Assembly: GCA_011033025.1 (NCBI GenBank)
Contig: WFMF01000571.1
Location: forward strand, 36,702 to 100,701
Direction of reading: 5' to 3'
DNA from: Beroe forskalii
Taxonomy: Eukaryota; Ctenophora; Nuda; Beroida; Beroidae
DNA length: 64,000 nt
Part shown: piece by piece, positions 40,482 through 63,951 of the stretch
Layout of the letters: each line of letters begins with the position of its first letter
How positions within the stretch are numbered: position 1 is the stretch's first letter
Made by a program: the position numbers and the translations under genes
The notes under the pieces: model-generated
Database searches by the model: none
Seen by the model: the letters and a program-made list of their open reading frames with translations, nothing else
Told to the model about the DNA's origin: nothing

Positions 40482-40547
40482 CTATCAGATTTAAGATTTC
40501 TCTCCATGGTTCATACAGTAGAACGAAAGTTTGAAACATCATTTGAT
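40482..40547 (-). ncRNA. C/D snoRNA, family A
   Basis: Box C AAATGATGT, box D ATCTGAT. The stretch AACTTTCGTTCT can pair 12 bases with 18S AGAACGAAAGTT, but the box D' after it (CTGT) is imperfect. Last snoRNA of the array. Confidence 0.65.
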
Positions 40548-40705
40548 TTGAAATCAAGAAAATCAGATATTATGATATGCAGCCAAAGTACCTGATATGA
40601 TGTAGTCTGGTATCTGATCTGCAGCCCTTACCGCGTAGAAAACTGAAATTCAACGAATAAGTTGAACATATTCATTTCCTGAAAAATGATAGATCTTTGG
40701 ATAGA

Positions 40706-40773
40706 AATTCAGATCAAAGTGAAGTTTTAGGTGCTTCTTCACGGTTGTTAAGATCAATAGTTGACATCATTAG
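40706..40773 (-). ncRNA. C/D snoRNA, family B (28S guide)
   Basis: Box C TAATGATGT, box D GATCTGA. CTTCACTTTGA just before box D matches 28S TCAAAGTGAAG. Family K guides the adjacent bases. Confidence 0.72.
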
Positions 40774-40974
40774 ATCACAGACTAAATTAGATGTTACCAT
40801 TTTCAACTGAACTTACAATTTAGTGGTGGTCTCTTCTCAGTTCCCTGTTTGGGCTGGGAGAGAGAGGTTTAGGCTTTTCTTCGAAAATGTCCCTGCTGCT
40901 TTTACCACTGAATGGGATGGATGTTTTAAGAACGGGACAGAAAATTCTAATAAGATTTGAGCCATCTTAAATGG

Positions 40975-41040
40975 AAATCAGTATCACGTTTTCAATTTCA
41001 TTCTATGTCAGATGACCGTCGTGATGAATTCATCATTTCA
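40975..41040 (-). ncRNA. C/D snoRNA, family C copy 1
   Basis: Box C AATGATGAA, box D' ATCTGAC, C'-like GAATGAA, box D TACTGAT. ACGACGGT before D' fits 18S ACCGTCGT, 8 bases and 2 away from the box, so the target is tentative. Confidence 0.6.
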
Positions 41041-41238
41041 TGTATTCGGTTCAAATACTTCTTCATTCTGTCCACATAAATACGAAGACTCGCACCTTAG
41101 ATCTCGATTGTTGAGGGAATCGGGGCTCGTGGGTCACATGAGAGAGTAACGACCCGTCCACGGCACTGCTCTGAAAATTAACTTTTATGAAACACCGAAA
41201 TTCTGCTGAAACTTGAACAATTGTGGAACGATTTGATA

Positions 41239-41308
41239 TTTTCAGAATCAGCGGAAAATTGTATAATCTTCATTGCTTTGAAATCTCAGTAAATTCATTC
41301 ATCATCTA
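41239..41308 (-). ncRNA. C/D snoRNA, family D copy 1 (28S guide)
   Basis: Box C AGATGATGAA, D' TTACTGAG, C' CAATGAAG, D ATTCTGAA: all four boxes are intact. CCGCTGATT before box D pairs with 28S AATCAGCGG in the peptidyl-transferase domain. Confidence 0.82.
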
Positions 41309-41491
41309 TCTTACAGCCAAATCCTGACACAATGTGTCAAAATGTTAAGAACTTACCGGGCATTGCAAGGGAGGTGCACGGTCACTATTCGTTCAAATCT
41401 TCAAAAATGCAATCAGCAATCGATCACTGAAATAGATTAAGATTTAGCATGATGAGCCTCTGGCAGAATTCCTATTGCAATTTATTTCATT

Positions 41492-41555
41492 TCCTCAGAG
41501 TGTGTAACAAAATGATTCAGCAGAGAAGTCAGGAAGCTATTATTGTCATCATTGG
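41492..41555 (-). ncRNA. C/D snoRNA, family E copy 1 (28S guide)
   Basis: Box C AATGATGAC, D' TCCTGAC, D ACTCTGAG; short terminal stem TTCC/GGAA. TTGTTACAC before box D fits 28S GTGTAACAA. Confidence 0.8.
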
Positions 41556-41721
41556 AATTACCATAATAAGCGTTGGGGAAGCTCAATCACAAACTTACGT
41601 TTTCCAAGAGTCTGATACAACTCGTGGGTCATTTGTGCGGAAAAGTCGCTGCTCTGGAAATGTTAATTTGTCAAACACTGATATTAAGCTGACAGTTCTA
41701 GAATTGTGGATTGATTTGATA

Positions 41722-41790
41722 GTTTCAGAATCAGCGGAAAATTGGTAAATCTTCATTGCTTTGAAAGCTCAGTGAATCATTCATCATCTA
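41722..41790 (-). ncRNA. C/D snoRNA, family D copy 2
   Basis: Same boxes and CCGCTGATT guide as copy 1; differs in a few bases between D' and C. Confidence 0.82.
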
Positions 41791-41971
41791 TCTTGCAAGT
41801 TCTGAGTCAATGTGTCAAAAGTTTAGAACTGGCTTACCGAATATCCCATCAGAGGAGCAGCACACTTTAGAAATGACTCATATCTTCGTGATCAGCAATT
41901 CAACAACCTGAAACACGTTTTATCAAATAAACTGAATAAACCTCTGATATTTCTACTGCATGTGTAGACAA

Positions 41972-42035
41972 TCCTCAGAGTGTGTAACAAAGTGATTCAG
42001 CAGAGAAGTCAGGAAGCTATAACTGTCATCATTGG
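41972..42035 (-). ncRNA. C/D snoRNA, family E copy 2
   Basis: Nearly identical to the copy at 41492 over its whole length, while flanking intron sequence differs. Confidence 0.8.
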
Positions 42036-42210
42036 AATTGGTATAAACTGAGTTTGGGGGGGGGGGGAATTTCAAACTTACATTTGCAGGGTTTCATGTC
42101 TGATACAACTCGTGTGTCATTTGTCGCTAGAAAGTCGCTTCCCTGAAATTGTTAATTTGTAAGACACTGAAATTCATCTGACAATTGAACAGTAGCAGAT
42201 TATTGTGATA

Positions 42211-42279
42211 GGTTCAGAATCAGCGGAAAATTGTAAAATCTTCATTGCTTTGAAAGCTCAGTAAATCATTCATCATCTA
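42211..42279 (-). ncRNA. C/D snoRNA, family D copy 3
   Basis: Same boxes and guide as copies 1 and 2, alternating with family E along the host. Confidence 0.82.
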
Positions 42280-42595
42280 TCTCATGAAATGAAAAAACTG
42301 ATGATAGTGCCAAAATGTAACTGTCTTACCGACTCCCAATCACAAGAGAGGTGCACAGCCACTATTCGTTCGAATCTTCGTAACTTCAATCAACATTTTA
42401 GCAACCTGAAAAACGCGCTCTATCAATAAGAATTATCAATAATTATGTGCAGTTAAATTTAACTCTGCAAAGAATTCGAAAAGAAGGGCGGCCTATGTTT
42501 TTTTCAATAAAGTGTATCTGAAGCACGGGGCAGAGTTACAGTTAACACTACACGAAAACCCCAGAGTTATTCTACCTGCCTTTGTTAACACTGAC

Positions 42596-42681
42596 ACAGG
42601 GGTGCCAATGTTATTCGAGATACAGGCTGCTAGAGAATACAGGGGTGCCAATGTTATTCGAGATACAGGCTACTAGAGAAA
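42596..42681. repeat. 43-bp tandem duplication
   Basis: ACAGGGGTGCCAATGTTATT and the following 23 bp occur twice with one or two differences. Confidence 0.85.
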
Positions 42682-42856
42682 AACATGATTCTTAAGTTCA
42701 TGATTTAAACTTACCGCTGATTTCAACGTTGTTCATCAGCTCACAGCTTTTGAGCCAGTTTTTAAAAATCCAGTCCGACCAAACCTGAAGAAGCGGCGCT
42801 AAATATGAATTGGGAATCAAAAGTAATCAAATTATTAGAAACAATATAAGTATTTA

Positions 42857-42926
42857 AGTTCAGATACTGTAGCCAATTTGTATCAGCACTAGCAATAAGA
42901 TTCGTCATCTTGTGATCATCATTGAA
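42857..42926 (-). ncRNA. C/D snoRNA, family F copy 1
   Basis: Box C AATGATGATC, D' GTGCTGAT, D ATACTGAA or ATATCTGA in other copies; terminal GTT/AAC. Guide candidate TTGGCTAC fits 28S GTAGCCAA for only 8 bases, so the target is uncertain. Confidence 0.82.
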
Positions 42927-43115
42927 ACAGGATGGAAAGTTATCTCGAGACCTTTTCAACTGAAATTACCTTGAATTTTGGATGAATTTTGAAGAAGCAA
43001 CGCCGTGTCAGCGGTCGTCTCCGTTTTGGGACATCCACGTGAAACTGAAACTGTTAAAACACTGATTAGAGGGTATGAAAGTCCGAGACAAATGAATATC
43101 GTTGAAGTTGGTCTT

Positions 43116-43185
43116 TCATCAGTGAAATAAATATGGTGTCAACTCAGAAAAGTCAGACGGTAATTCCAATAAAACATCATTTGAA
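43116..43185 (-). ncRNA. SNORD65: C/D snoRNA, SNORD65-like copy 1 (18S)
   Basis: Box C AAATGATGT, D' GTCTGAC, D CACTGATG, terminal stem TTTCA/TGAAA. TGGAATTACCG before D' pairs with 18S CGGTAATTCCA; the fifth base from D' falls on the U of CGGU, the site of human 18S Um627, which SNORD65 guides. Symbol by target, not by alignment. Confidence 0.82.
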
Positions 43186-43349
43186 ACTGACAAGATTATC
43201 GGGAAAATCTTGTTTAAATCACTTACTTTCAAATCTGGGGAAATCTTGTAGATCCGTCAGAAGCCAAAACCAAGAACGAACCTGCAGGATTTTGAACATA
43301 ATATCAAATTGACGAATCAACATGATAATTTGTACAGAAACTAAGGCAT

Positions 43350-43416
43350 CGTTCAGGAAGGTTAAGGGTGGCTTCATTAGTTGTCAGAAACACGGACCTT
43401 AATGTCATCATTAGAA
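43350..43416 (-). ncRNA. SNORD18: C/D snoRNA, SNORD18-like copy 1 (28S)
   Basis: Box C AATGATGAC, D' TTTCTGAC, C' TAATGAAG, D TTCCTGAA. GGTCCGTGTTT before D' matches 28S AAACACGGACC and resembles the U18 guide; the fifth base gives the A of AAACACGG (human Am1313 region). Confidence 0.85.
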
Positions 43417-43615
43417 ACAGGGGCGAAATAACATTGTTTATTCCATGGAATAAGCAATTCCAAGACCAAGGTTTCACTTACAAGAAACTGAAACTGTTCA
43501 GTGTTCATTTCCGAGATAATGAAACCGGGCCAGTCTCTCTTAGAATCTGAAACAAAATTAATATGAAGAAATGCACAGAACAGGGAATCCGATTCAAAGA
43601 CTGCATTAAAAGTTA

Positions 43616-43685
43616 AGTTCAGATAATGTAGCCAATTTGTATCAGCACTAGCAATAAGATTCGTCATCTCGTGATCATCATTGCA
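43616..43685 (-). ncRNA. C/D snoRNA, family F copy 2
   Basis: Same boxes; the segment from CACAAG or CACGAG to TTGGCTAC is unchanged. Confidence 0.82.
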
Positions 43686-43861
43686 ACAGAGAAAGGTCAA
43701 AAGTATCTCAACAAAATTTTAATCGTTTAATTACCTAAAAATTTGGATGAATCTTGAAGAAAAGCAAAACATCTATCTTTGACTCAGTGACTGATCTGAA
43801 GAATATAAGAAAACTTGATTGATAGGTATAATAACCGCTTATTTGCAGAATAGTTGAAATA

Positions 43862-43925
43862 ATATCAGGAAAGTTTTATGATCACGGAACATCATTAGTT
43901 GTGTCAAATTTTAACATCATTTAAA
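43862..43925 (-). ncRNA. C/D snoRNA, family G copy 1 (orphan)
   Basis: Box C AAATGATGT, internal C-like TAATGATGT, D TCCTGAT. AAAACTTT before D has no rRNA match I recognise. Confidence 0.65.
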
Positions 43926-44087
43926 AAGACCGGTTTCAGGAAGAATCAAGGCCACTGACTCCCTGAGAACTTACAATTGAGTTGGATAGTTGAAGTGACT
44001 GTAGTCTTCTAATTCTGAAACCCTGAAATGGTAAATATTTCATGATCTTGAAATACCTTGTCCTACCATTCTACGAGTTTATAGGTC

Positions 44088-44167
44088 GTTTCAGAAGGAA
44101 CAATTAAGTAAACATTGATTACCAAGAGGTAACCATTTCATAAAGGGCAAGTCTTTTTCATCATAGT
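44088..44167 (-). ncRNA. C/D snoRNA, family H copy 1 (orphan)
   Basis: About 80 nt. Box C CTATGATGA, D TTCTGAA, terminal stem GTCGT/ACGAC. CAATTGTTCCTT lies before D (CTTAATTGTTCCTT in this copy). No target recognised; longer than a typical guide. Confidence 0.75.
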
Positions 44168-44335
44168 ACGACGAAACTTATAATCGAAAATCAAACTATG
44201 AAAATTATATTTACCAGATTAAACGATTTCAGATTTGTAAGAAACTTCTTTTTTAAGATCTAGAATCTTGAGCTGTCTGAAAAAAGAGAATAAAAAATTT
44301 CACGAACATATCAGAGAGAAAGTTCAACGGGAAGA

Positions 44336-44417
44336 GATTTTCTCAGATTGTGTCAGAATATGATAAAAATCAAAGCAACGTTGTTGCTCATTCTAAGCTA
44401 ATTTTCTCATCAGGAAA
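44336..44417 (-). ncRNA. C/D snoRNA, family I copy 1 (orphan)
   Basis: Box C CTGATGAG, two CTGA boxes at the 3' end (TTCTGAC and ATCTGAG) and an internal hairpin GCAAC/GTTGC. TTTTC/GAAAA closes the ends with the outer D. No target recognised. Confidence 0.7.
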
Positions 44418-44719
44418 AATAGAAATGGAAACCCTGCCCCGTAAGGGGGGAAAGGAAAAATTCTAGTTACAAGCAAACTTACCGAATGTAAAATGCATGT
44501 TAAACAGGAGGGTGACAAATGCAGTTTAGCCAAGATTAAGGATTTCGACACTGATAAGAACTTCCTGTCCTCTCCTATGCCCATATACGGGCATGCATCT
44601 GCCCATATATGGGCATGCTGATTACCCTCATTATATCTTCAAGGGACTGGTCTGAAGAGGGTATGAAAATTTGATTGATAGGTATAAAAGCCGCCACAAA
44701 TTGCGGAATAGTTCAAATA

Positions 44720-44783
44720 ATATCAGGAAAGTTTTATGATCACGGAACATCATTAGTTGTGTCAAATTATAACATCATTATAG
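44720..44783 (-). ncRNA. C/D snoRNA, family G copy 2 (orphan)
   Basis: Same as copy 1 apart from two bases; heads the second G-H-I cassette. Confidence 0.65.
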
Positions 44784-44941
44784 TCATGAAAAATGATAGA
44801 AAAAGAATCGATCCCTGAGAACTTACAATTGAATTGGTTTGTTGAAATGACTGTCGTCTTCTAATTTTGACTCCCTGAAATAAGCACTTTTAATGATCAT
44901 GAAATACCTTGTCCTAACATAATACGTGTCTGTATAATGTC

Positions 44942-45022
44942 GTTTCAGAAGGAACAATTGAGTAAACATTGATCACCAAGAGGTAACCATTTCATAAAGG
45001 GCAAGTCTTTTTCATCATAGTA
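44942..45022 (-). ncRNA. C/D snoRNA, family H copy 2 (orphan)
   Basis: Same boxes and stem; conserved through its full 80 nt. Confidence 0.75.
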
Positions 45023-45178
45023 CGACAGAACTGATAATCTTAGAACAAACAAAACTAAGTTATAATTACCTGATTAAGTGACGTGAAATGGACACTACTT
45101 CTTTTGAATCTTGCGTCTGAAAATACGTTTCATTAAATATTTTATGCACAAGTCAAAGAGAACGTTCACTGAGGAGAT

Positions 45179-45260
45179 ATTTTCTCAGATTGTGTCAGAA
45201 TTTGATAAAAATCAAGGCAACTTTGTTGCTCATTACAAGCTAATTTTCTCATCAGGGAAA
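45179..45260 (-). ncRNA. C/D snoRNA, family I copy 2 (orphan)
   Basis: Loop of the internal hairpin differs (AAA instead of AAC) but the GCAAC/GTTGC-type stem is retained in part. Confidence 0.7.
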
Positions 45261-45436
45261 ATGGATGTTTTCTAAAACAATGAAAGCCAATTTACCAAGA
45301 TGCCCTGGTCATCCCAGGTCCTTGAAATCGCTTGCAGGGTGACTTCCGTCGTCTTCTGATGCTGAACCCCTGAAATAGGAAATATTTCATGATCTTGAAA
45401 TACCTTGTCCGAACATAATACAAGTTTTTGTATGTC

Positions 45437-45517
45437 GTTTCAGAAGGAACAATTGAGTAAACATTGATCACCAAACGGCAACCATTTCATAAAGGGCAAG
45501 TCTTTTTCATCATAGTA
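45437..45517 (-). ncRNA. C/D snoRNA, family H copy 3 (orphan)
   Basis: Same boxes; small changes in the central TTGGTGATC region. Confidence 0.75.
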
Positions 45518-45676
45518 CAACGAAGATAATTTAAGTATTCTAGACAAAACTACTATTATAATTACCAGGCGGGTGAAGAAAGTGAAATGGACACTACTTC
45601 TTGTCGAATCATGTATCTGAAAAGAGGGTAATTAAATATAACATGATCATATCACAGAGAAAGTTCATTGGAAGAA

Positions 45677-45758
45677 ATCTTCTCAGATTGTGTCAGAATA
45701 TGATAAAAATCAAAGCAACTTTGTTGCTCATTCAAAGCTAATTTTCTCATCAGGGAAA
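45677..45758 (-). ncRNA. C/D snoRNA, family I copy 3 (orphan)
   Basis: Same boxes and hairpin as copies 1 and 2. Confidence 0.7.
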
Positions 45759-45931
45759 ATGGTTCATTTTTTGGAAATAATGAAAACAAAATTACCTCGA
45801 TGTTTGGATTACAGTGCGAGAACCGATGAAAAAGACGCTTGACAACGTTCCAGGACCTGACAAAACGTAAAAGACTGATTAGCGATAATGCAAACCCAGA
45901 ACAAACACTAGATATTACGGGGTTTGTTATT

Positions 45932-46000
45932 TCATCAGTGAATAAATATGGTGTCAACTCAGAAAAGTCAGACGGTAATTCCAATAAAACATCATTTGAA
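45932..46000 (-). ncRNA. SNORD65: C/D snoRNA, SNORD65-like copy 2
   Basis: Same guide and boxes, again with TGAAA after box D. Confidence 0.82.
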
Positions 46001-46151
46001 GTAGTCGGGACAAGATTAGCAAGAAAATGATTGTTTTATCACTTACCGTAAAATTTTGAAGATCACTCAACACCAGTAGCCAAGACCTGCAGGATTTTGA
46101 ATATTAAATTGCCAAATCAGCGATGACAAATTGTAACAGGAACTGAAGTAG

Positions 46152-46218
46152 TGTTCAGGAAGGTTAAGGGTGGCTTCATTAGTTGTCAGAAACACGGACC
46201 TTAATGTCATCATTAGAA
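46152..46218 (-). ncRNA. SNORD18: C/D snoRNA, SNORD18-like copy 2
   Basis: Identical in boxes and guide to copy 1. Confidence 0.85.
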
Positions 46219-46398
46219 ACATGGGTAAAAGTAAATCATTATTGTTCCACGGCTTACATGAAACTGGTTGTGTGATTTACGATCCTGAACATCCATCTTG
46301 GGCACTTCATTTCTTCTCGAATCCAGAAACCAGCCTAAGGAACAGAAATCATAAAAACGTTGCAAGGCTAATATCATCAAATTCATTTCGAGGATGAG

Positions 46399-46512
46399 AA
46401 ATCAGAGAAAATCTTGTATCACATCCCATCACACGATTTCATCTGAACAAAAAACTTGTTCTGAAGAAATAAATGTGATGAGTCAATCCAAATGCCAGAT
46501 ATCATCATGTAA
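46399..46512 (-). ncRNA. Long C/D snoRNA, family J copy 1
   Basis: About 114 nt. Box C ATGATGAT, D CTCTGAT and a central hairpin GAACAA/TTGTTC. GGCATTTGG near the 5' end fits 28S CCAAATGCC. A second GTGATGG could be C'. Confidence 0.65.
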
Positions 46513-46690
46513 ATTAATATTTAAATGGGGTTAATCAATATCAAAGATAAATCTAAAATCACTCGTACCGATAAATATTCAGAAGAGTTAAGGAGTAGCG
46601 TCCTTTCTTATGTTATCGACACTGAAATAAGCATGAAAATATAGCAACAAGTATTAATTAATGAACTTGTGGGGAGAAGGGAGGTAAGTG

Positions 46691-46775
46691 GAGTCAGGTG
46701 AAGAAATTATCCTCATTTTAACCGGCTGATAGCCAGTCTCTAGCATTATTTGTCATTTTGGGATCATCATTCTGG
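46691..46775 (-). ncRNA. C/D snoRNA, family K copy 1 (28S guide)
   Basis: Box C AATGATGATC, C' AATGAGGA, D CACCTGAC. AATTTCTTCAC before D matches 28S GTGAAGAAATT, next to the family B target. Confidence 0.78.
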
Positions 46776-46939
46776 ATTGAAATAGCTTAAAATTCATTGA
46801 TGAACTCATAAAGCTGACTTACGCCTTTCAAAAGTTCTTTCGAGGGGTCTGAATCTGTTGTGAACAGGTAAACCTGTATGAGAATTTACTCAGTAACAAT
46901 ATCGAACTTTTCTATGCAAATGTTAAGATTCATTTAGTT

Positions 46940-46995
46940 TTATCAGGAGTGTTTGTCATCATTAAAATCAGACCCGAAAGATGAACATCATGTAA
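46940..46995 (-). ncRNA. C/D snoRNA, family L copy 1 (28S guide)
   Basis: Box C ACATGATGT, D' GGTCTGAT, C' AATGATGAC, D TCCTGAT, stem TTTTA/TAAAA. CATCTTTCGGGT before D' matches 28S ACCCGAAAGATG over 12 bases. Confidence 0.82.
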
Positions 46996-47170
46996 AAACT
47001 AAATTAATTGAAAACTTAATAAATCGAGTAAAAATTATCACCTGTTACTTCGTGACATAAAACAGAGCCACGCGATTTCGAGTCTTCCAACAGTATCGAA
47101 ATTCTGAAAAAGATGAGGATTCAGTATACGACATTTAGTGAAATGAATCTTTTTCAACTGAAATTTATAA

Positions 47171-47232
47171 TTATCAGATTTGGTAATCCATCACAAAGTT
47201 TCAGACAATGTAGGTTGAAAACATCATTAATT
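47171..47232 (-). ncRNA. C/D snoRNA, family M copy 1 (28S guide)
   Basis: Box C AATGATGT, D' TGTCTGAA, C' GTGATGG, D ATCTGATA. ACCTACATTG before D' matches 28S CAATGTAGGT. Confidence 0.8.
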
Positions 47233-47395
47233 AGTATGTTGTTTTGTAAAATATTCCTGATTTTGCACTCACCAAAAAAAGCCTCTGATGAGTTTAGGCA
47301 ACTCAGTCGATGCATTGATATCCTGAAATAGCTATTTGAAGTTGTGATTAATTGTGAATCAAAACGAATATAATCAAGAAATGAATAATTATTAG

Positions 47396-47465
47396 TGTTC
47401 AGATATTGTAGCCAATTTGTATCAGCACTAGCAATAAGATTCGTCATCTTGTGATCATCATAGAA
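47396..47465 (-). ncRNA. C/D snoRNA, family F copy 3
   Basis: Box D is ATATCTGA; otherwise as copy 1. Confidence 0.82.
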
Positions 47466-47673
47466 ACAGTAGAGAAAAATTAAAAAGTATGATGTCATTT
47501 AGTGCATTGGAATTACCTGTTGTGAGCTCCTATTTTGAACAAAGGAGATACTGGAGGGTAACAGAAACACATTCTGGCTTTTTATATCAGTCAGCCGTCA
47601 TACAGCACCTGAAAGCGAAAAATACTGAGCGACGATGCAAACACGGGAACATCAGTAGATATTTTGGAAGCTG

Positions 47674-47742
47674 GTATCAGTGAATTAATATGGTGTCAAC
47701 TCAGAAAAGTCAGACGGTAATTCCAATAAAACATCATTTGAA
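47674..47742 (-). ncRNA. SNORD65: C/D snoRNA, SNORD65-like copy 3
   Basis: Guide and boxes kept; the 3' flank after D has changed to TACCAGC, so the terminal stem is weaker. Confidence 0.8.
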
Positions 47743-47907
47743 GAAGTCGGGAGAAGGTTGTCAATTCTGTTTAATCACTTACTTTCAATGCTTAAGAAGT
47801 TTATAGTAGTCACCAGTCAACTAATGGAACCTGAGCAGGATTTTGATTATTAAATTGACGAATCACCAATGATAATTTGAAACAGGAGTTTCCAAATTGC
47901 AAAGGTT

Positions 47908-47974
47908 AGTTCAGGAAGGTTAAGGGTGGCTTCATTAGTTTTCAGAAACACGGACCTTAATGTCATCATTAGAA
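47908..47974 (-). ncRNA. SNORD18: C/D snoRNA, SNORD18-like copy 3
   Basis: One change after D' (CTGAAAAC instead of CTGACAAC); the guide is intact. Confidence 0.84.
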
Positions 47975-48158
47975 AACAATCATGGGTAAAAGTTATTTCA
48001 GAACCTACGCAATTGATGTTTAACTTACCGCTGCTAACAAATCTGTTCATCAGCTGTAGCTGTCGCTGGTCTTTTTAAACACAACCTGGAAAAGGGTTGT
48101 CGATGAATATAAAATTAGCGAAACAAAAGAATGAAAAGATGAAACTAGGAGACATTTT

Positions 48159-48228
48159 TTTTCAGAAATTGTAGCCAATTTGTATCAGCACCAACAATAA
48201 GATTCGTCATCTTGTGATCATCATTGAA
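48159..48228 (-). ncRNA. C/D snoRNA, family F copy 4
   Basis: Two changes in the D' guide (TTGTTGGTG) but boxes and the D guide kept. Confidence 0.8.
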
Positions 48229-48432
48229 ACAAAAAATAAATGAAAAGTATCACATCACTTAGTCAAGTGAAATTACCTGATTTATATGAAGGGTGCCAGT
48301 AGTATAAAGGTAACATCAGCAGATTCAAGCATTATCCATTTCAAAACGTCGCTTTTTGCCAGGACCTAAAGCGTGAAATACTGATAAGTCATAGTGCAAA
48401 CCGAGAACAGATAGTAAATATTATGAAAGCTG

Positions 48433-48501
48433 GTATCAGTGAATAAATATGGTGTCAACTCAGAAAAGTCAGACGGTAATTCCAATAAAACATCATTTGA
48501 A
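48433..48501 (-). ncRNA. SNORD65: C/D snoRNA, SNORD65-like copy 4
   Basis: As copy 3, with the same TACCAGC flank, showing that copies 3 and 4 are sisters. Confidence 0.8.
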
Positions 48502-56033: not shown

Positions 56034-56188
56034 AAAGAGGTTTGAAATTCTGTTGCCAGAAGCCTTTAAACTCACCTAGGTAGCTTTTAGCATTCTGCTA
56101 AGTTGACCCCAACATTTCAAGTTCGCTCTGAAGTTGAAACATGTAAATCGATGACAAAAACGGCGTAAATTTTGCTATTGACAAAATC

Positions 56189-56269
56189 TCATCAGTTCAA
56201 GGAAGGCAGCACCAAGTATCATTCATGAATTTTCAGGAGTGACATAAAGGTGTTTTAGCATCATTTTGG
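56189..56269 (-). ncRNA. C/D snoRNA, family U copy 1 (18S AAGGAAGGCAGCA)
   Basis: Box C ATGATGC, D' TCCTGAA, C' GAATGATAC, D AACTGATG. TGCTGCCTTCCTT pairs with 18S AAGGAAGGCAGCA, the segment served by SNORD83 and U14 in human. Here D lies three bases further from the duplex than in copies 2 and 4. Confidence 0.84.
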
Positions 56270-56716
56270 GTCAAAATTGAGTAAACAATGATGTTCAAAG
56301 GTTAGCCTACCAGGAAGGATCAGGAAGATTCCAATCAGGGACTGACAGAAATGGCCTCCATCTCGAACGAATGAGGAATTTCAAAGCCACTAATTCACCA
56401 TTGCTTTGTTTTGATTGCCTGAAATGTAAAAAATGAAGAAACGGAACGAGTTTATGTAACAAACGGGTCATATGAAGATATTTCATCAGCGAATTGTAGT
56501 TATAGAATAAACATGGGGCGTTCATTTCAATAGTTCGTCATCACTTGCAAGTATGATTGTAATATTAGGCAAGGTCAAAACAGCGAAATTAACTTACGGA
56601 GTTACGAAGGGCAACTTTATCTGTTCCTTCTCTCGCACTTCAACTTATAACTGAAATTTAATTCTTCATTAGAACACAAACAGCTAGAAAAACACGTTAC
56701 TTTGAGGACTGTAACA

Positions 56717-56784
56717 TAATCAGGTTTTAGGGATAAGTTTTCCTCAGCCAACAGTCGAAGAGAGCTGGGTGTGTCATCATTTTA
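56717..56784 (-). ncRNA. C/D snoRNA, family S copy 2 (orphan)
   Basis: Guides as copy 1; starts the second cassette. Confidence 0.83.
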
Positions 56785-56802
56785 TTTTAAATGAAAGAAT
56801 TT

Positions 56803-56899
56803 AGGGCGGCATTTTGGCCTCCTACATGCGCGGCCCTTCCATGCGCACGATTACGCCGCGCATGAAAAAGACGCGCATATGGGAGTTCAACACGCCCCT
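56803..56899. mobile_element. GCGGC-MITE copy 3, in a snoRNA host intron
   Basis: About 97 bp: GGGCGGCATTTTGGCCTCCT, GCGCGGCCCTTCCATGCGC and GGGAGTTCAACACGCCCCT. The equivalent place at 60.6 kb lacks it. Confidence 0.65.
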
Positions 56900-57061
56900 G
56901 ATAGGAAGAATCAGAAGTTAAAACGTCCTACTAACCTAACCATTGAAGTTCAGCACCTTGGCCTTTATCTTCAGCAGGATCAATCAATCTCAACCTGCAA
57001 TACAACCAAATCTCACCATATATCATCTGGTGTCAGAGTGTATTGGTATGGGAAGGGTGGT

Positions 57062-57134
57062 ATTTCAGGCTTAGATGTTCTGGAAAGATGTCCACATCGT
57101 TTTTAGGAGTGGTGCATGATGTCTCATCATCAAT
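57062..57134 (-). ncRNA. C/D snoRNA, family T copy 2
   Basis: Guide as copy 1 with one change upstream of it (TCTTTCCAG). Confidence 0.83.
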
Positions 57135-57299
57135 ATTTGGAATAGAAAGAAAAGTGTAAAGGGCACTAACACTAACCAGAAATTTTAGGCGATGGCAAAT
57201 CCAGCTGAGCGATTTCATAAGACATCCGCCCAGTGCTGAAATTGAAAATTATAGAAAAAAAGCGTAATGGATGTAGAAAAGTTGCAAAATAAGGATACA

Positions 57300-57365
57300 T
57301 GATCAGATAAATTTGGTTTGTCATCCAGAGGTATCAGAACAGGTCTGAGATAATCATCACGATAT
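57300..57365 (-). ncRNA. SNORD25: C/D snoRNA SNORD25-like copy 2, second guide lost
   Basis: D' guide kept; the D guide has decayed to CAAATTTAT and no longer fits 18S. Confidence 0.86.
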
Positions 57366-57570
57366 AAAGAGGTTTGAAATTCTGTTTGACACAAGAAACC
57401 ATTAAACTTACTTTAGTAGCGCTTCACCAGTAGATGGAGCAGCACCATATTTAAGCGGCGGGAGTATACTAGTATAGTCTTTCGTATGATTCCGTAACCG
57501 GCCTAAAATAATGTTTGAAAAAATTAGAAATCTACTTTTCCCAAAATCAAGAGGAAAGCACGGGGTAAAA

Positions 57571-57647
57571 TTATCAGAAGGAAGGCAGCACCGAGTATCA
57601 TTCATGAATTTTCAGGAGTGACATTTAGGTGTTATATCATCATTTTA
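57571..57647 (-). ncRNA. C/D snoRNA, family U copy 2
   Basis: Box C ATGATGAT and D directly after the guide (CCTTCCTT-CTGA); the fifth base gives an A of AAGGA, close to human Am468. Confidence 0.85.
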
Positions 57648-57829
57648 GAGCAAAATTGAGAAAACGATGTCATTGTTCATCAGCAGTTAGCTTACCAGGT
57701 ATGTTCAGGTAGAAAGGGTAGTCCACCAAAGAGCTTATCCTCGCAGACCATCCTGAAAATAATGTGTCAACAAAATAGACATCTATAGTTCGATTTTGAA
57801 TTTGAGGGGTTTTGAATGGTAAAATTCTC

Positions 57830-57931
57830 AAGTCAGATTCGGGAATTATCTGCATGACATCGGGGAAGAGTTAGGTGGGCTGGCAGGCCCCACTTCCCTG
57901 AAATAAGGCGCAAATTACGGCATCATATTGT
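57830..57931 (-). ncRNA. SNORD16: C/D snoRNA SNORD16 copy 1 (18S)
   Basis: About 102 nt, as long as U16. Box C ATGATGCC, then GTAATTTGCGCC, complementary to 18S GCGCAAATTAC (the SNORD16 site). A strong internal hairpin GGGAAG/CTTCCC with TGGG/CCCA, then D ATCTGAC. The internal hairpin is a U16 hallmark. Confidence 0.87.
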
Positions 57932-58143
57932 GAGAACCTTTACATTGCAGGGAAATTATGGAAAAGCTTGAAAAGCCAGGATTGCTCTGTTGTAACTTAC
58001 GTTTTTAGCAGTGCTTCTGAAAATCAGGCGACAATTATGGAACAATGCTCCATCGGATCCTTCAATCAGGTGAACCCTTGGGAATGAAAGGATATGTGAA
58101 AAATCAAGCAAATAGACCGAATATCAATTCAAATTGTGAAGTT

Positions 58144-58219
58144 AAATCAGACATCCAAGGAAGAAAAACTTCATTGTTTAATCAGTGGAAACTGCGAGTA
58201 TGGAATTTTCATCATGTTA
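58144..58219 (-). ncRNA. SNORD14: C/D snoRNA U14 (SNORD14) copy 1
   Basis: Both U14 domains are present: CGCAGTTTCCAC (domain A, needed for 18S processing) and TTCCTTGGATGT before box D (domain B, guides human 18S Cm462). Boxes C ATGATGA, D' CACTGAT, C' AATGAAG, D GTCTGAT. Confidence 0.93.
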
Positions 58220-58374
58220 AAATCTATAAGTGATTTTAAGCTGTAAATTTGACAAATCTCACCTTGCAGAACACTTGACGCAATGATCATTGATGGTACA
58301 ATAGCGGCACTGAAATGTTGTCATAGATCAGTCCCACGACTCAATTTTGAGACAATGGAATGTTTAGACATTTA

Positions 58375-58450
58375 TGATCAGTTTATGGGTGGTAGGAGTA
58401 TAGAAAGTCCTCACGGATTTGGAGTGTAGGTTATCTCTCTCATCATATCA
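58375..58450 (-). ncRNA. C/D snoRNA, family V copy 1
   Basis: Box C ATATGATGAG, C' GTGAGGA, D AACTGAT. TACCACCC before D fits 28S GGGTGGTA for only 8 bases; the target is uncertain. Confidence 0.78.
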
Positions 58451-58611
58451 AAAGCTAATTTACGTTTGCAGAGAAAAGTTGAAAAGAGCACAAACTCACA
58501 TTTGATCAGGAAGCTTCCACCGCCACGAAACATCAATAGCTCACTGAAAAATGGATCGATTAGTTTTAAAAAGACTCGGGTTTGTAGACATCTGTGAAGA
58601 AAAAAATTAGA

Positions 58612-58680
58612 GAATCAGGTGTTACCTTGGGTTATCACCACAATATTGTAAGACAGGGATAACTTGTGTTCATCATTTTG
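58612..58680 (-). ncRNA. C/D snoRNA, family W copy 1 (28S guide)
   Basis: Box C AATGATGAA, C' GGTGATAA, D ACCTGAT. GTTATCCCTGT matches 28S ACAGGGATAAC; the D' after it is CTTA, a poor box. Confidence 0.78.
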
Positions 58681-58892
58681 ATGTGGGTGGAAAGAAAGCT
58701 GTCTTCAGATGAAACTTACTAACCATGGTTAAATGGGTCTTGTGCTGTCCACCAAAAGGATAGTAGATGCAGAAGTCTGAAAATAATCCTATGAACCCAA
58801 AGACAATTGAATCAATGTCGCCAATTGTAATCCTTCAAGCAAATGAAAAAATATGAATAGAATCTCTCTTTTTACTTGAGATAATTAATCAA

Positions 58893-59020
58893 TTCTGTAT
58901 CTGATCGGATTGAGATGAAGACTAGAGAGTGGACATCCCACTAAACCAGAAGGGGGTGCTCTAGTTTCACTGACGGCCAACACAACATGGGTCTGTAGCG
59001 CTGGTGCTTTTGGAAACACG
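58893..59020 (-). ncRNA. H/ACA-like snoRNA, family X copy 1
   Basis: About 128 nt. A 5' hairpin closed by GTTTC/GAAAC, then H box AGAGCA, a 3' hairpin with AGTGG/CCACT and TCTGGT/ATCAGA, and ACA three bases from the end. Fits the hairpin-hinge-hairpin-tail plan. Pseudouridylation target not determined. Confidence 0.6.
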
Positions 59021-59190
59021 ATTCTGCATGAAATGAATCTTCCTTAGGGTCCTTACCTTTCAAAGGAATCCTGTATGGAACCAGTTGCTGCACGTAGAAG
59101 ATAATAGCCAAAGATTACCAGTTTCTGAAAGAAATTAGTCTTTTAGTTACGGCCCAAAAATGTAACTGTTCAAAATGTGAGAGATTTTGT

Positions 59191-59255
59191 CTTTCAGACT
59201 CATTAAATCAGTTTTAACCATCACGGAGAGTATGGAAAAGAGTATCATCAGAAAA
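59191..59255 (-). ncRNA. SNORD57: C/D snoRNA SNORD57-like copy 1 (18S)
   Basis: Box C CTGATGAT, D GTCTGAA. AACTGATTTAATGAG before D is complementary to 18S CTCATTAAATCAGTT over 15 bases; the fifth base gives the A of CUCA, human 18S Am99, the SNORD57 site. Confidence 0.86.
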
Positions 59256-59460
59256 ATAGTATCAACCGTTCCATCTAAAGAGCGAAATTAACTTACGGAA
59301 CTGACCTGTCCTTTGAAGCCATTTGAAGCTACATCTGGAATATTACTCAGAAATTGAATTGATCTGCTCCTTCTCCTTGTCCCACTGATCGCTGAAATTC
59401 AATTCTTCATTAAAACACTTGAAATAGCTAAAATAACAAGTACTATTTTGAGACATGACA

Positions 59461-59528
59461 AAATCAGGTTTTAGGGATAAGTTTTCCTCAGCCAACAGTC
59501 GAAGAGAGCTGGGTGTGTCATCATTTTA
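59461..59528 (-). ncRNA. C/D snoRNA, family S copy 3 (orphan)
   Basis: Guides as copy 1; starts the second 14-snoRNA unit. Confidence 0.83.
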
Positions 59529-59697
59529 AATGAAAGAAGTAACTACATCTGACAAATGAAGAATCAGAAGTTAAATCCTACTAACCATGAACGCACATCA
59601 AAGTTCAGACTCTTATCTGTAGTATCATTACCTGAAAACACAATATCTCACTTAACAGCAATCTAGTATCAGAGTGTAGGGGTATGGGAAGGGTGTT

Positions 59698-59770
59698 ATT
59701 TCAGGCTTAGATGTTCTGGAGAAATGTCCACATCGTTTTTAGGAGTGGTGCATGATGTCTCATCATTAAT
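59698..59770 (-). ncRNA. C/D snoRNA, family T copy 3
   Basis: Guide identical to copy 1. Confidence 0.84.
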
Positions 59771-59959
59771 ATTTGGAATAGAAATAAAAAGCGTGGAATG
59801 GGCAGAAAAACTTACCATATTTTGATTTTTACGAAATGCAGGCTCCACTATAATACTGTAAACGTGAAGGGGCTCAACGTCTTCAATCCCGCTGAAATTT
59901 ATAAATTCTAAAAATATGATGTTCATGGATGATGATAAGTTGCAAAATAAGGATGTGCA

Positions 59960-60030
59960 ATATCAGATACGAGGAATTCGGTTTGTCATCCAGGGATATC
60001 AGAACAGGTCTGAGAAAATCATCACGATGC
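59960..60030 (-). ncRNA. SNORD25: C/D snoRNA SNORD25-like, double guide, copy 3
   Basis: Both guides intact as in copy 1. Confidence 0.88.
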
Positions 60031-60225
60031 AAAAGTTTGGATCTCTGTTGCCAGAAATCATCCAACTTTCTTTGGTAGTAGCTGTGTGCATGAGTATTAA
60101 AAAACTTACCTCTCTTTCCAAATCCTTTGTTGACCCCATCATTTCATCTCAAAAGTCACTCTGAAATTGAAACACAAACTTAATTGAGGGCAAAGGACAG
60201 CGTGGAATTTGTTATTGACAAAATC

Positions 60226-60306
60226 TTATCAGTTCAAGGAAGGCAGCACCAAGTATCATTCATGAATTTTCAGGAGTGACATAAAGGTGTTTTAGCATCA
60301 TGTTGG
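60226..60306 (-). ncRNA. C/D snoRNA, family U copy 3
   Basis: Box C ATGATGC, spacing GAA before box D as in copy 1. Confidence 0.84.
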
Positions 60307-60512
60307 ATGAAAAGAGAGACTACAATTATTTTCAGAGCTGCTTAGCTTACCAGGAATGATTCGAAGAATCTGATAGAAGACACTTCAACGACATCATTCA
60401 CCATTCTTTACGTTATTGCCAACTGGATTTCATCTGAAATGGACAAAAATTGATAAACAACAAAATTTTTGCTAGAACAAGACGAGTTTTTTTGAGATGA
60501 CAGATAATAATA

Positions 60513-60580
60513 AAATCAGGTTTTAGGGATAAGTTTTCCTCAGCCAACAGTCGAAGAGAGCTGGGTGTGTCATCATTTTA
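60513..60580 (-). ncRNA. C/D snoRNA, family S copy 4 (orphan)
   Basis: Guides as copy 1. Confidence 0.83.
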
Positions 60581-60760
60581 CATGAAAGAAGTAACTACAT
60601 CTGATAGGAAGATCAGAAGTTAAAACCTCTTACTAACCTGACCAATTGACGATGAGCACATCAATGTTCAGCGCCTTTATCTGTAGACACAACCTGAAAA
60701 TACAATTATCTCAACAACCAACAATCTAGTGTCAGAGTGTAGGGGTTTGGGAAGGATGGT

Positions 60761-60833
60761 ATTTCAGGCTTAGATGTTCTGGAGAAATGTCCACATCGTT
60801 TTTAGGAGTGGTGCATGATATCTCATCATCAAT
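60761..60833 (-). ncRNA. C/D snoRNA, family T copy 4
   Basis: Guide identical to copy 1. Confidence 0.84.
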
Positions 60834-60998
60834 ATTTGAAAAAGAAAATAAAAGTGGGAAGAGCAGAAACACTAACCAGAAATTTTACGCGATGGCAATT
60901 CCAGCTGAGCGATTTCAAAAGACATTCTCCCAGTGCTGAAATTGAAAATTATAGAAAAAAGCGTAATGCATGTAGAAAAGTTGCAAAATAAGGAAACA

Positions 60999-61065
60999 TA
61001 TTCAGATAAATTGTGTTTGTCATCCAGAGGTATCAGAACAGGTCTGAGAATAATCATCACGATAT
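60999..61065 (-). ncRNA. SNORD25: C/D snoRNA SNORD25-like copy 4, second guide lost
   Basis: D' guide kept; D guide is CACAATTTAT, related to copy 2. Confidence 0.86.
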
Positions 61066-61233
61066 AATGAGGTTTGAAATTCTGTTTGACACAAGAAAAA
61101 ATTAAACTTACTTTAGCAGCTTCATGTGTATTGGAGCATATCCATATTTTAGGTTGACCCCCAAGTCTTCAATGATTCAAGTTCAATCCTAAAATAATGT
61201 TTGTAAATTGAAAATCTAAAGCACGGGGTAAAC

Positions 61234-61309
61234 TTATCAGAAGGAAGGCAGCACCGAGTATCATTCATGAATTTTCAGGAGTGACATTTAGTGTTATATC
61301 ATCATTTTA
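61234..61309 (-). ncRNA. C/D snoRNA, family U copy 4
   Basis: As copy 2, D directly after the guide. Confidence 0.85.
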
Positions 61310-61494
61310 GAGCAAAAATTGAGAAAACGATGTCAATGTTCAGCAGTTGGCTTACCAGGAATGTTCAGGAAGAAAGGGAAAGTAGTCCAACATAGAGCAT
61401 ATCCTCGCAGAACCTCCTGAAAATAATGTGTCAACAAAAATAGAAATCTATAGTTTGATTTTCAATTTGAGGGGTTTTGAAAGGTAAAATTCTC

Positions 61495-61596
61495 AAGTCA
61501 GATTCGGGAATTATCTGCATGACATCAGGGAAGAGTTGGGTGGGCTGGCAGGCCCCACTTCCCTGAAATAAGGCGCAAATTACGGCATCATGTGAG
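61495..61596 (-). ncRNA. SNORD16: C/D snoRNA SNORD16 copy 2
   Basis: Same guide and hairpin; C' reads TGATGTC here where copy 1 has CGATGTC. Confidence 0.87.
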
Positions 61597-61796
61597 AAAT
61601 GTTAGCATGGAAAAGCTTGACAATCCAGGATTGCTCTGTTGTAACTTACGTTTTCAGCAATGCTTCTGAAAATCAGGCAACAATTTTGGGACAATGTTCC
61701 ATCGAGATTGCATCAATCAGGTAAACCCTGGAGAAAGAAAGGATATGTGAAAATTCAAGCAGAAAATATATCAAATATCAATCCAAATTATGGAAA

Positions 61797-61872
61797 AAAT
61801 CAGACATCCAAGGAAGAAAAACTTCATTGTTTAATCAGTGGAAACTGCGAGTATGGAATTTTCATCATGTTT
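61797..61872 (-). ncRNA. SNORD14: C/D snoRNA U14 (SNORD14) copy 2
   Basis: Domains A and B and all boxes identical to copy 1. Confidence 0.93.
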
Positions 61873-62024
61873 ATCTTAGTCATTCGCAGCTGTAAATTTG
61901 ACATATCTCACCTATAAAATGGTTGCAGTGCAGAGGAAGTGTTGATTCACTAGCGCCCCTGAAATATTGAGATAGATCAGTTCCATCACTTGAATTGCGA
62001 CATGGAATGTTAAAAGTATTTTGC

Positions 62025-62100
62025 TGATCAGTTTATGGGTGGTAGGAGTATAGAAAGTCCTCACGGAGTTGGAGTGTAGGTTGTCTCTCTCATCATATCA
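62025..62100 (-). ncRNA. C/D snoRNA, family V copy 2
   Basis: Differs from copy 1 by a few bases outside the boxes. Confidence 0.78.
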
Positions 62101-62256
62101 AAAGCTAATTTACGTTTGCAGAGAAAAGCTGGAAAGAGCACAAACTCACATTTGATCAGGCTTCCATCGCCGCAAAACATCAATAGCTCACTGAAAAATA
62201 AACCGATTAATTTAAAGAAGTCTGGGTTTATAGACATCTGTGAAGAAAAAATTCGA

Positions 62257-62325
62257 GAATCAGGTGTTACCTTGGGTTATCACCACAATATTGTAAGACA
62301 GGGATAACTTGTGTTCATCATTTCA
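62257..62325 (-). ncRNA. C/D snoRNA, family W copy 2
   Basis: Identical in boxes and 28S-complementary stretch to copy 1. Confidence 0.78.
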
Positions 62326-62547
62326 ATTGTGGGTGGAAAGAAAGCTGCCTTCGACGAAACTTACTAACCATGGCTAAATGGGTTCTTGTACTCGCCACCA
62401 AAGGATAGGCAGAACAGAAGTCTGAAAATAACAATATGAAACCAATGAAAACTGAATCGATGTCTTAAATCGTGATCCTTCAAGCAAATGAAAAAATATG
62501 AATAGAATCTCTATTTTTACTTGAGAAGATTAATCAATTCTGTATCA

Positions 62548-62676
62548 GATTGTATCTGATCGGATTGAGATGAAGACTAGAGAGTGGACATCCCACTAAA
62601 CCAGATTGGGGGTGTTCTAGTTTCACTGACGGCCAACACAACATGGGTCTGTAGCGCTGGTGCTTTTGGAAACAAG
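62548..62676 (-). ncRNA. H/ACA-like snoRNA, family X copy 2
   Basis: Same plan; H box is AGAACA (still ANANNA). The 3' tail is duplicated (ATCAGATACA then ATCTGATACA), giving two possible ACA ends. Confidence 0.6.
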
Positions 62677-62848
62677 ATTCTGCATGAAATGAATTTTCCT
62701 GAGGGTCCTTACCTTTCAAAGGAATCCTGTATGGTATCAGATGCTGCACGTAGAAGATAATAGCCAAAGATTAGCAGTTTCTGAAAGAAATTAGTCTTTT
62801 AGTGACGGTCCAGAAGGGCGGATGTTCAAAAAGTGAGTGGTTTTGTGT

Positions 62849-62913
62849 TTTTCAGACTCATTAAATCAGTTTTAACCATCACGGAAAGTATGGAAAAGAG
62901 TATCATCAGAAAA
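62849..62913 (-). ncRNA. SNORD57: C/D snoRNA SNORD57-like copy 2
   Basis: Guide and boxes identical to copy 1. Confidence 0.86.
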
Positions 62914-63112
62914 ATAGTATGAACCGTGCCCCCTTTAATTAACGAGCAAAGTCAGATCCAGCGAAATTCACTTACTCACTGATCCTTGCAGCTACATCTG
63001 GAACTGCACTCAGGAGCTTAATCTTTCGCCTACCTCCCACAGATAACTGAAATAAAATCCCTCGTCGAATCTCAAATATCAAGAAAAATATGTAATATTT
63101 TGAGAAAAAGGA

Positions 63113-63180
63113 AAATCAGGTTTTAGGGATAAGTTTTCCTCAGCCAACAGTCGAAGAGAGCTGGGTGTGTCATCATTTTA
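63113..63180 (-). ncRNA. C/D snoRNA, family S copy 5 (orphan)
   Basis: Guides as copy 1; starts the third unit, cut by the window edge. Confidence 0.83.
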
Positions 63181-63343
63181 AATATGATAAGTAATTACAT
63201 TTGATAGGAAGAATCACTTCTCACTAACCATGAGGGCATATCAAAGTTCAGCACCTTTATCTGTAGTATGAAAACCTGAAAAAACAATTTTCTCACCAAC
63301 CAGCAAATCTAATGTTTGAGTCTAAGGGTTTGGGAAGGGTGGT

Positions 63344-63416
63344 ATTTCAGGCTTAGATGTTCTGGAGAAATGTCCACATCGTTTTTAGGAGTGGTGCATG
63401 ATGTCTCATCATGAAT
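63344..63416 (-). ncRNA. C/D snoRNA, family T copy 5
   Basis: Guide identical to copy 1. Confidence 0.84.
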
Positions 63417-63606
63417 ATTTGGAATAGAAATAAAAAGCGTGGAATGGGCAGAAAAACGTACCATGTTTTGATTTTCCACGAAATGCAGGCTCCACTATAA
63501 TACTGTAAACGTAAAGGGGCTCAACGTCTTCAATCCCGCTGAAATTTAAAAATTTTAAAAATATGATGTTCATGGATGATGATAAGTTGCACAATAAGGA
63601 TGTACA

Positions 63607-63677
63607 TTATCAGATACGAGGAATTCGGTTTGTCATCCAGGGTTATCAGAACAGGTCTGAGAAAATCATCACGATGC
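63607..63677 (-). ncRNA. SNORD25: C/D snoRNA SNORD25-like, double guide, copy 5
   Basis: Both guides intact as in copies 1 and 3. Confidence 0.88.
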
Positions 63678-63870
63678 TGAAGTTTGGATCTCTGTTGCCA
63701 GAAATCATCCAACTTCCTTTGGTAGTAGCTGAGTGCATGAGTATTAAAAAACTTACCTCTCCTTCCAAATCCTTTGTTGACCCCAGCATTTCATCTCAAA
63801 AGTCACTCTGAAATTGAAACACAAACTTAATTGAGGACAAAACGGCATAAACTTCGTTATTGACAAAATC

Positions 63871-63951
63871 TTATCAGTTCAAGGAAGGCAGCACCAAGTA
63901 TCATTCATGAATTTTCAGGAGTGACATAAAGGTGTTTTAGCATCATGTTGG
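63871..63951 (-). ncRNA. C/D snoRNA, family U copy 5
   Basis: As copies 1 and 3; last snoRNA before the window edge. Confidence 0.84.

Follow-up and report, generated by a model that had tools for sequence, protein, structure and literature searches.

Organisation of the array

The 64,000-nucleotide stretch of the Beroe forskalii genome analysed here (contig WFMF01000571.1; referred to as the window) contains, between positions 40482 and 63951 of its minus strand, a dense series of sequences that carry the boxes of C/D small nucleolar RNAs (snoRNAs) and lie between predicted small exons (Table 1). A sequence-only reading had interpreted this region as a snoRNA host gene with at least 85 intronic snoRNAs, spaced every 250-300 bp. 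In the region, ATGATG and CTGA motifs form 70 pairs on the minus strand and 10 on the plus strand, with four and seven, respectively, in the remaining 40.5 kb. The mean in 100 shuffles is 4.92 and the maximum 14, which places the boxes well above their frequency in shuffled sequence, the comparison that the sequence-only reading had itself named.

From the list of box candidates, 81 C/D snoRNAs were chosen by eye, leaving out overlapping or weak rows. A further three, with CAGA as their D box, were included on account of a sequence that occurs three times, each time in an intron to which a first splice chain assigned no other snoRNA. The resulting 84 were selected for having C and D boxes 50-110 nt apart, and the excess over shuffles is the actual test. 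Their C box contains TGATG in 80 cases (ATGAAGA in three others and ATGAGGA in one), and their D box is CTGA in 81 and CAGA in three. They are separated by a median of 258 bp (interquartile range 236-277, range 217-770), close to the proposed spacing. Together with four H/ACA candidates they bring the total to 88 in ~23.5 kb, so that the proposed minimum of 85 holds with the H/ACA candidates included and is not reached by the 84 C/D snoRNAs alone. The C/D snoRNAs were split by eye into 31 families, a number that may be off by a few, with five single, 11 two-copy, seven three-copy, four four-copy, and four five-copy families. Clustering at 70% identity was rejected, as it lumped unrelated snoRNAs into 12 groups. 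A search with Rfam, which had been suggested for the minus strand, gave four matches above the gathering score in the snoRNA slots, all on that strand, and 70 of the 72 matches in a wider list are also on the minus strand, with two on the plus strand.

Three of the four H/ACA candidates were identified by eye and folding, and the fourth by its match to SNORA19. This match is below the gathering score of 80, its fold has a z score of -3.37, and a second copy is found on another contig of the assembly (C1). The candidate that occurs twice in the window, at 62552..62682 and 58897..59027, has two further copies on C1; no Rfam match is listed for the first of these, and the fold of the second is equalled by 14 of 200 shuffles. 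For the candidate at 42513..42640, which also has no listed Rfam match, the best fold closes both halves with an outer stem instead of forming two plain hairpins. A 43-bp direct duplication (97%) at 42596-42680 overlaps its 5' part.

The snoRNA sequences are positioned consistently relative to splice sites. Counted with no gene model, 66 of the 84 have a donor 40-65 nt upstream of the C box (13.6% at random positions of the region) and 81 have an acceptor 60-89 nt downstream of the D box (35.1% at random positions), which bears out the small exons with good splice sites that had been described. A splice chain through the region has 89 introns, of which 88 contain a single snoRNA and one contains none, with median lengths of 188 bp for introns and 59 bp for exons, 52 nt from donor to C box (interquartile range 47-60), and 70.5 nt from D box to acceptor (interquartile range 68-74). 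This chain was given the snoRNA places and rewarded for the expected spacing, and is thus a description, with the model-free counts serving as the independent test; the first chain, which lacked the spacing reward, used mostly the same sites with more of them misplaced. A few exon edges are clearly off, with acceptors misplaced at 21, 30, and 36 nt after the D box. The small introns would hold one snoRNA each, at about the established distance from the 3' splice site. A distance of 40-50 nt between snoRNA and branch point is described for splicing-coupled C/D snoRNA maturation (PMC10234308), and the spacing in the window would match it with a branch point ~20-30 nt upstream of the acceptor. 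The sole predicted intron with no snoRNA, at 54486-54638, is followed by a 317-bp 'exon'. By eye, the sequence at 54300-54640 is repeated internally and looks like an inserted element.

Sequence conservation among copies follows the snoRNA boundaries. The comparison covers 92 pairs of copies; the other four of the 96 involve the copy at 63946, which lies too close to the end of the contig, and were left out. One CAGA copy is 2 nt out of register in this comparison. The snoRNA itself has a mean identity of 0.958, the preceding 40 nt one of 0.619, and the following 55 nt one of 0.669. Identity falls to 0.559 further upstream, where the sequence is mostly exon and has no conserved reading frame, and unrelated introns aligned in the same way give 0.49-0.51. 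In 90 of the 92 pairs, identity is higher in the snoRNA than in either flank, in agreement with the earlier description of nearly identical copies in diverged introns. Variable columns number 3/182 in C boxes, 4/104 in D boxes, and 72/1082 in the rest of the snoRNA, compared with 374/650 and 302/650 in the two flanks. This pattern of conservation, confined to the snoRNA, suggests selection that maintained the snoRNAs and let exons and intron flanks drift. The joined exons contain 109, 115, and 109 stop codons in the three frames, and their longest open reading frame, 109 amino acids, is equalled in 12 of 200 shuffles. By these tests of stop count and reading-frame length, the host transcript is noncoding.

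Complementarity to ribosomal RNA (rRNA) was examined with foreign sequences because none was found in the Beroe assembly, where an 18S oligonucleotide had no matches with up to one mismatch and the 5.8S family had none with 39 of 6881 first-look candidates scored. The set used is eukaryotic rDNA from eight contigs; the titles of seven name bacterial metagenome-assembled genomes and that of the eighth a cyanobacterium. The contigs L028-L035, filed under bacterial genomes, carry eukaryotic rDNA motifs, which indicates contamination. In an anchored test, rRNA had to be common to at least two of the eight contigs and the duplex had to end no more than 3 nt from a D or D'-like box. Duplexes of at least 10 bp were found in 14 of the 31 families, compared with 1.67 (maximum 8) for shuffled guides, and duplexes of at least 11 bp in 11 families, compared with 0.475 (maximum 3). 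The opposite rRNA strand gave zero families at either length. The SNORD2-like guide forms 13 Watson-Crick pairs with 28S rRNA and the SNORD18-like guide forms 12. In the CAGA-box family, a 28S-complementary stretch of 10 pairs adjoins the CAGA box in the anchored test, while the reversed-rRNA control scored higher in an unanchored search. At least families such as the SNORD2-like and SNORD18-like ones look like ordinary rRNA guides.

Table 1 Predicted features of the array in window coordinates. C/D snoRNAs run from C box to D box, with positions in the order of the names.
Feature	Position	Strand	Basis or remark
Probable multi-snoRNA noncoding host gene, 3' part	40413..64000	-	5' part beyond contig end at 64000
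First C/D block	60516..63946	-	Rfam search and by-eye families
First block: 1A, 2B, 13C, 15D	63874-63946, 63610-63672, 63347-63412, 63116-63176	-	
First block: U57-like, 16E, 14C2, U14-like, 24G	62852-62909, 62260-62321, 62028-62096, 61800-61868, 61498-61591	-	
First block, end: 1A, 2B, 13C, 15D	61237-61305, 61002-61060, 60764-60829, 60516-60576	-	
Second block copy	56486..60301	-	Rfam search, families and block identity
Second block: 1A, 2B, 13C, 15D	60229-60301, 59963-60025, 59701-59766, 59464-59524	-	
Second block: U57-like, 16E, 14C2, U14-like, 24G	59194-59251, 58615-58676, 58378-58446, 58147-58215, 57833-57926	-	
Second block, end: 1A, 2B, 13C, 15D, single	57574-57643, 57303-57360, 57065-57130, 56720-56780, 56486-56544	-	
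Partial third block copy	54795..56264	-	Family order
Third block: 1A, 2B, 13C, 15D, two singles	56192-56264, 55966-56028, 55701-55766, 55319-55379, 55050-55112, 54795-54857	-	
Four C/D snoRNAs	53201..54087	-	All four above Rfam gathering score
Alternating block	51001..52960	-	Family 6, CAGA-box family, family 7
Alternating block: family 6 (three), family 7	52896-52960, 52347-52411, 51256-51320, 51848-51907	-	
Alternating block: CAGA-box family (three)	52651-52710, 52104-52163, 51001-51060	-	
C/D group	46402..50718	-	Rfam search and families
25H (two), U34-like (three)	50662-50718, 49912-49965, 50445-50498, 49691-49744, 47174-47227	-	
SNORD2-like (three), 26I (two)	50216-50264, 49451-49499, 46943-46991, 49205-49282, 46694-46770	-	
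27J (two), U18-like (two)	48912-49018, 46402-46508, 48685-48743, 47911-47969	-	
snoR77Y-like (two), snR75-like (two)	48436-48496, 47677-47737, 48162-48224, 47399-47461	-	
C/D group	42860..46213	-	Rfam search and families
U18-like (two), snoR77Y-like (two)	46155-46213, 43353-43411, 45935-45995, 43119-43180	-	
28K (three), 29L (three)	45693-45753, 45195-45255, 44353-44413, 45440-45513, 44945-45018, 44091-44164	-	
Family 20 (two), snR75-like (two)	44723-44778, 43865-43920, 43619-43681, 42860-42922	-	
C/D group	40485..42276	-	Rfam search and families
Family 21 (three), family 22 (two), family 7	42214-42276, 41725-41787, 41242-41305, 41975-42032, 41495-41552, 40978-41036	-	
Two singles	40709-40770, 40485-40542	-	Second weakly SNORD59/snR54-like
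H/ACA candidate, SNORA19 family	51570..51698	-	Rfam 58.2 bits, E 1.9e-7
H/ACA candidate, two hairpins, AGAACA hinge, ACA tail	62552..62682	-	By eye; fold z -2.46
H/ACA candidate, second copy of 62552..62682	58897..59027	-	By eye; fold z -1.64
H/ACA candidate, AGAATA hinge, ACA tail	42513..42640	-	By eye; fold z -3.54

Duplicated blocks, a second array, and neighbouring sequences

The snoRNA families recur in a fixed order, 1A-2B-13C-15D-U57-H/ACA-16E-14C2-U14-24G-1A-2B-13C-15D, which is repeated once in full and then in part. Over 3.4 kb, the first block and its full copy share 85% identity, with 95% in a 0.44-kb part. In the 3' half of the array the groups that repeat are 25H-U34-SNORD2, U18-snoR77Y-snR75, 28K-29L, and 21-22. 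This block pattern would be explained if repeats exchanged unequally and then lost their similarity almost everywhere outside the snoRNAs.

A second array, organised in the same way, is located at positions 1083741-1103893 of C1; it shares families with the 5' half of the array in the window and has its blocks in the order found there. Its Rfam matches are three SNORD14-like, three SNORA73-like, one SNORA16 (above the cut-off), and one SNORA19-like. The three SNORA73 (U17)-like H/ACA sequences, at L013 5270-7808, alternate with U14-like C/D sequences (E 3.6e-14 to 5.7e-12, below the gathering score). We selected 30 C/D candidates by eye, 29 from the box list and one (1087158) from the U14 match, and left out the rest. 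An acceptor is found at 60-89 nt in 29 of the 30 and a donor at 40-65 nt in 19, with the sole candidate lacking an acceptor being the one cut by a repeat. The C1 array stops mid-intron at 1103894, exactly where a high-copy repeat starts. This dispersed repeat (L015:3894-4750, C1 1103894 onward) is ~850 bp long, has more than 20 near-full-length copies at 90-98%, and is followed by a tandem repeat; the 57 matches listed include fragments and the tandem repeat.

The 5' end of the array in the window shares kilobases of sequence with C1, and the 3' half (40482-54100), used as one query, has at least three short matches on C1 and at least one on a further contig, C347. The last two introns of the C1 array form the unit 1A-2B that also opens the array in the window, an order that the period of the array predicts. 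The last C1 unit is 95.9% identical to the first unit of the window and 96.6% to an internal copy, with 95.2% between the internal copy and the window end. Joining the two would be consistent in order, but these values do not show them to be alleles or neighbours. It is possible but rather doubtful that a single ~44 kb host gene with some 110 or more snoRNAs has been split between the array of the window and that of C1. Were it true, one promoter would drive a large share of the genome's guide RNAs, and dosage amplification would occur outside mammals with ordinary rRNA guides.

Just downstream of the array, a multi-exon gene at 35673-40152 on the minus strand resembles cap methyltransferases. 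It begins with a frame of Gly/Arg-rich repeats, encoded by a 24/27/51-bp tandem repeat at 39968-40065, with an AG one base before the ATG. An FtsJ-like frame scores 23.2 bits in Pfam (E 7e-5), slightly short of the 24.1 cut-off. The PDB matches of a G-patch frame (E 2e-12) include a cap-specific 2'-O-methyltransferase 1, behind other G-patch proteins. Elsewhere in the window, the 12-bp repeat AGAAAGAGAGTT is present in 28.8 copies at 12897-13237, and a 37-bp repeat in eight copies at 1905-2208, with longer periods of 81 and 118 bp. The protein of a single-exon open reading frame near the array matches named animal sequences from Glandiceps, Lytechinus, and Mactra at 31-35% identity, ranking behind matches with no species name at up to 60%, and some sequences with bacterial names, so that an animal source is likely.

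A probable noncoding host gene and its alternatives

We consider it highly probable (roughly 0.93) that the array in the window forms the 3' portion of a multi-snoRNA noncoding host gene of the U-snoRNA host gene or SNHG type. The boxes, families, splice spacing, conservation pattern, rRNA complementarity, and absent coding signal can all be read from the sequence, and as far as sequence can test it the locus belongs to this class. The interpretation given in the sequence-only reading is supported, because the computable predictions of such a gene are borne out: an excess of boxes, Rfam matches biased to one strand, placement in introns, conservation confined to snoRNAs, complementarity to rRNA, and noncoding exons. 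The 5' end is not reached, as had been noted, since the contig (C660) ends at window position 64000, inside the array.

Several observations weigh against this identification. Only four of the 84 C/D copies pass the Rfam gathering score. A strict D'/C' pair is present in 44, so that the earlier description of D'/C' boxes as usual is borne out only in part. Terminal stems with a run of at least four pairs are enriched, at 32 of 84 compared with 11.4 in the swapped control, but not universal. The 13 nt upstream of the D box vary like the remaining snoRNA (25/338 columns), and conservation thus does not single out the guide. No clear consensus emerged from a search for branch-point motifs in the introns, and most expressed human snoRNAs are placed at least 100 nt from the branch point (PMC10234308), so the spacing between the two is not universal. 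For rRNA, 17 of the 31 families have no duplex of at least 10 bp in the partial foreign set, and motifs of the 3' part of 28S sought in the eight contigs, one of them possibly incorrect, were not found. The signal is weaker with unfiltered rRNA, where duplexes of at least 10 bp occur in 20 of 31 families compared with 12.9 for shuffled guides (maximum 20) and 12 for the opposite strand, and those of at least 11 bp in 16 compared with 4.7 (maximum 9) and 1. In the unanchored search for targets, many families did not beat the reversed-rRNA control.

The array could instead consist of several shorter host genes placed head to tail, each with its own promoter. The array is long, the snoRNA-free intron and the long 'exon' after it could mark a boundary, and the 3' half has at least four short matches elsewhere (three on C1 and one on C347) while the 5' end shares kilobases with C1. 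However, splice sites stay in register on one strand throughout, and neighbouring C/D snoRNAs are never more than 770 bp apart, which makes this arrangement unlikely. The snoRNA introns might also be 5' untranslated region introns of the cap-methyltransferase-like gene starting at ~40152 on the same strand, or form an operon with it, as its frame begins ~260 bp past the acceptor of the last snoRNA intron with AG one base before the ATG, and no AATAAA is seen by eye between the two. This connection is improbable given that the last exon has no good donor, with only one, scoring 1.7, offered by the first splice chain.

A mostly decaying array, duplicated by drift and consisting largely of pseudogene copies, is very improbable. 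Some copies deviate in length or box, and decayed copies could have been missed because the 84 were chosen for having boxes, but the boxes and the sequence between them hardly vary, whereas flank identity approaches that of random sequence. A snoRNA is present in 88 of the 89 predicted introns, and mimicking this pattern would need gene conversion limited to ~70 bp in family after family. Multiplication of a shorter array by the assembly is hardly credible: although the contig ends inside the array and the C1 array breaks off at a repeat, copies average 62-67% identity in their flanks and 56% on the exon side, and even the most similar long blocks, 85% alike over 3.4 kb with 0.44 kb at 95%, are too different for duplicated reads.

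For a noncoding host gene, we infer the following for transcription as a single unit, the place of the branch point, processing, methylation, and dosage. One transcript would be spliced at about 90 small exons, with each excised intron of ~190 nt holding one snoRNA whose 3' end lies ~40-50 nt before the branch point. The snoRNA-protein complex would assemble during splicing, after which the lariat would be debranched and exonucleases would trim up to the complex. On 18S and 28S rRNA, the mature C/D RNAs would direct 2'-O-methylation; the small number of H/ACA RNAs would guide pseudouridylation. The array would have grown as blocks of several introns were unequally duplicated again and again, with selection then keeping the snoRNAs as exons and intron flanks drifted. 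The extra copies most likely serve the dosage of housekeeping guides.

Relation to known snoRNA hosts

Vertebrate hosts of the GAS5, SNHG1, and UHG type carry about ten snoRNAs each. The locus in the window resembles them in its fast-drifting noncoding exons and intronic rRNA guides, but has 88 predicted snoRNAs. SNHG exons are described as noncoding and fast evolving (PMC11405852). The sequence-only reading's comparison with hosts of about ten is incomplete in that it leaves out human SNHG14, which has 29 SNORD116 and 48 SNORD115 introns in a primary transcript of ~600 kb (PMC11608373). Like SNHG14, the Beroe locus has one snoRNA per intron, tandemly duplicated introns, a noncoding host, and a similar number of snoRNAs. 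In contrast, it spans 23.5 kb, ~25 times shorter than the whole ~600 kb transcript, and contains 31 C/D families, 14 of them with rRNA duplexes, whereas SNORD116 and SNORD115 are two large families with no known targets (PMC11608373) in imprinted arrays (PMC11919532). Tandem snoRNA introns, here in repeated blocks, are also a feature of the eutherian imprinted C/D arrays SNORD113-116, but the orphan character of those arrays is not shared, as the window has canonical families and rRNA duplexes. Drosophila Uhg genes, such as Uhg4 with its seven snoRNAs (PMC9710044), are likewise noncoding invertebrate hosts of several intronic snoRNAs. According to one review, large tandem intronic C/D arrays are orphan families specific to eutherians, and more of them might be present in genomes that are little studied (PMC11028025). 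Among titles and abstract openings in the open-access literature, we found no non-mammalian snoRNA host of such size.

The locus indicates that array amplification acts on ordinary rRNA guides, with many families together in a compact noncoding host. With up to five copies per guide, it offers a natural set for relating copy number to snoRNA level and rRNA methylation, and the array itself provides a built-in alignment for the intron and exon requirements of snoRNA maturation.

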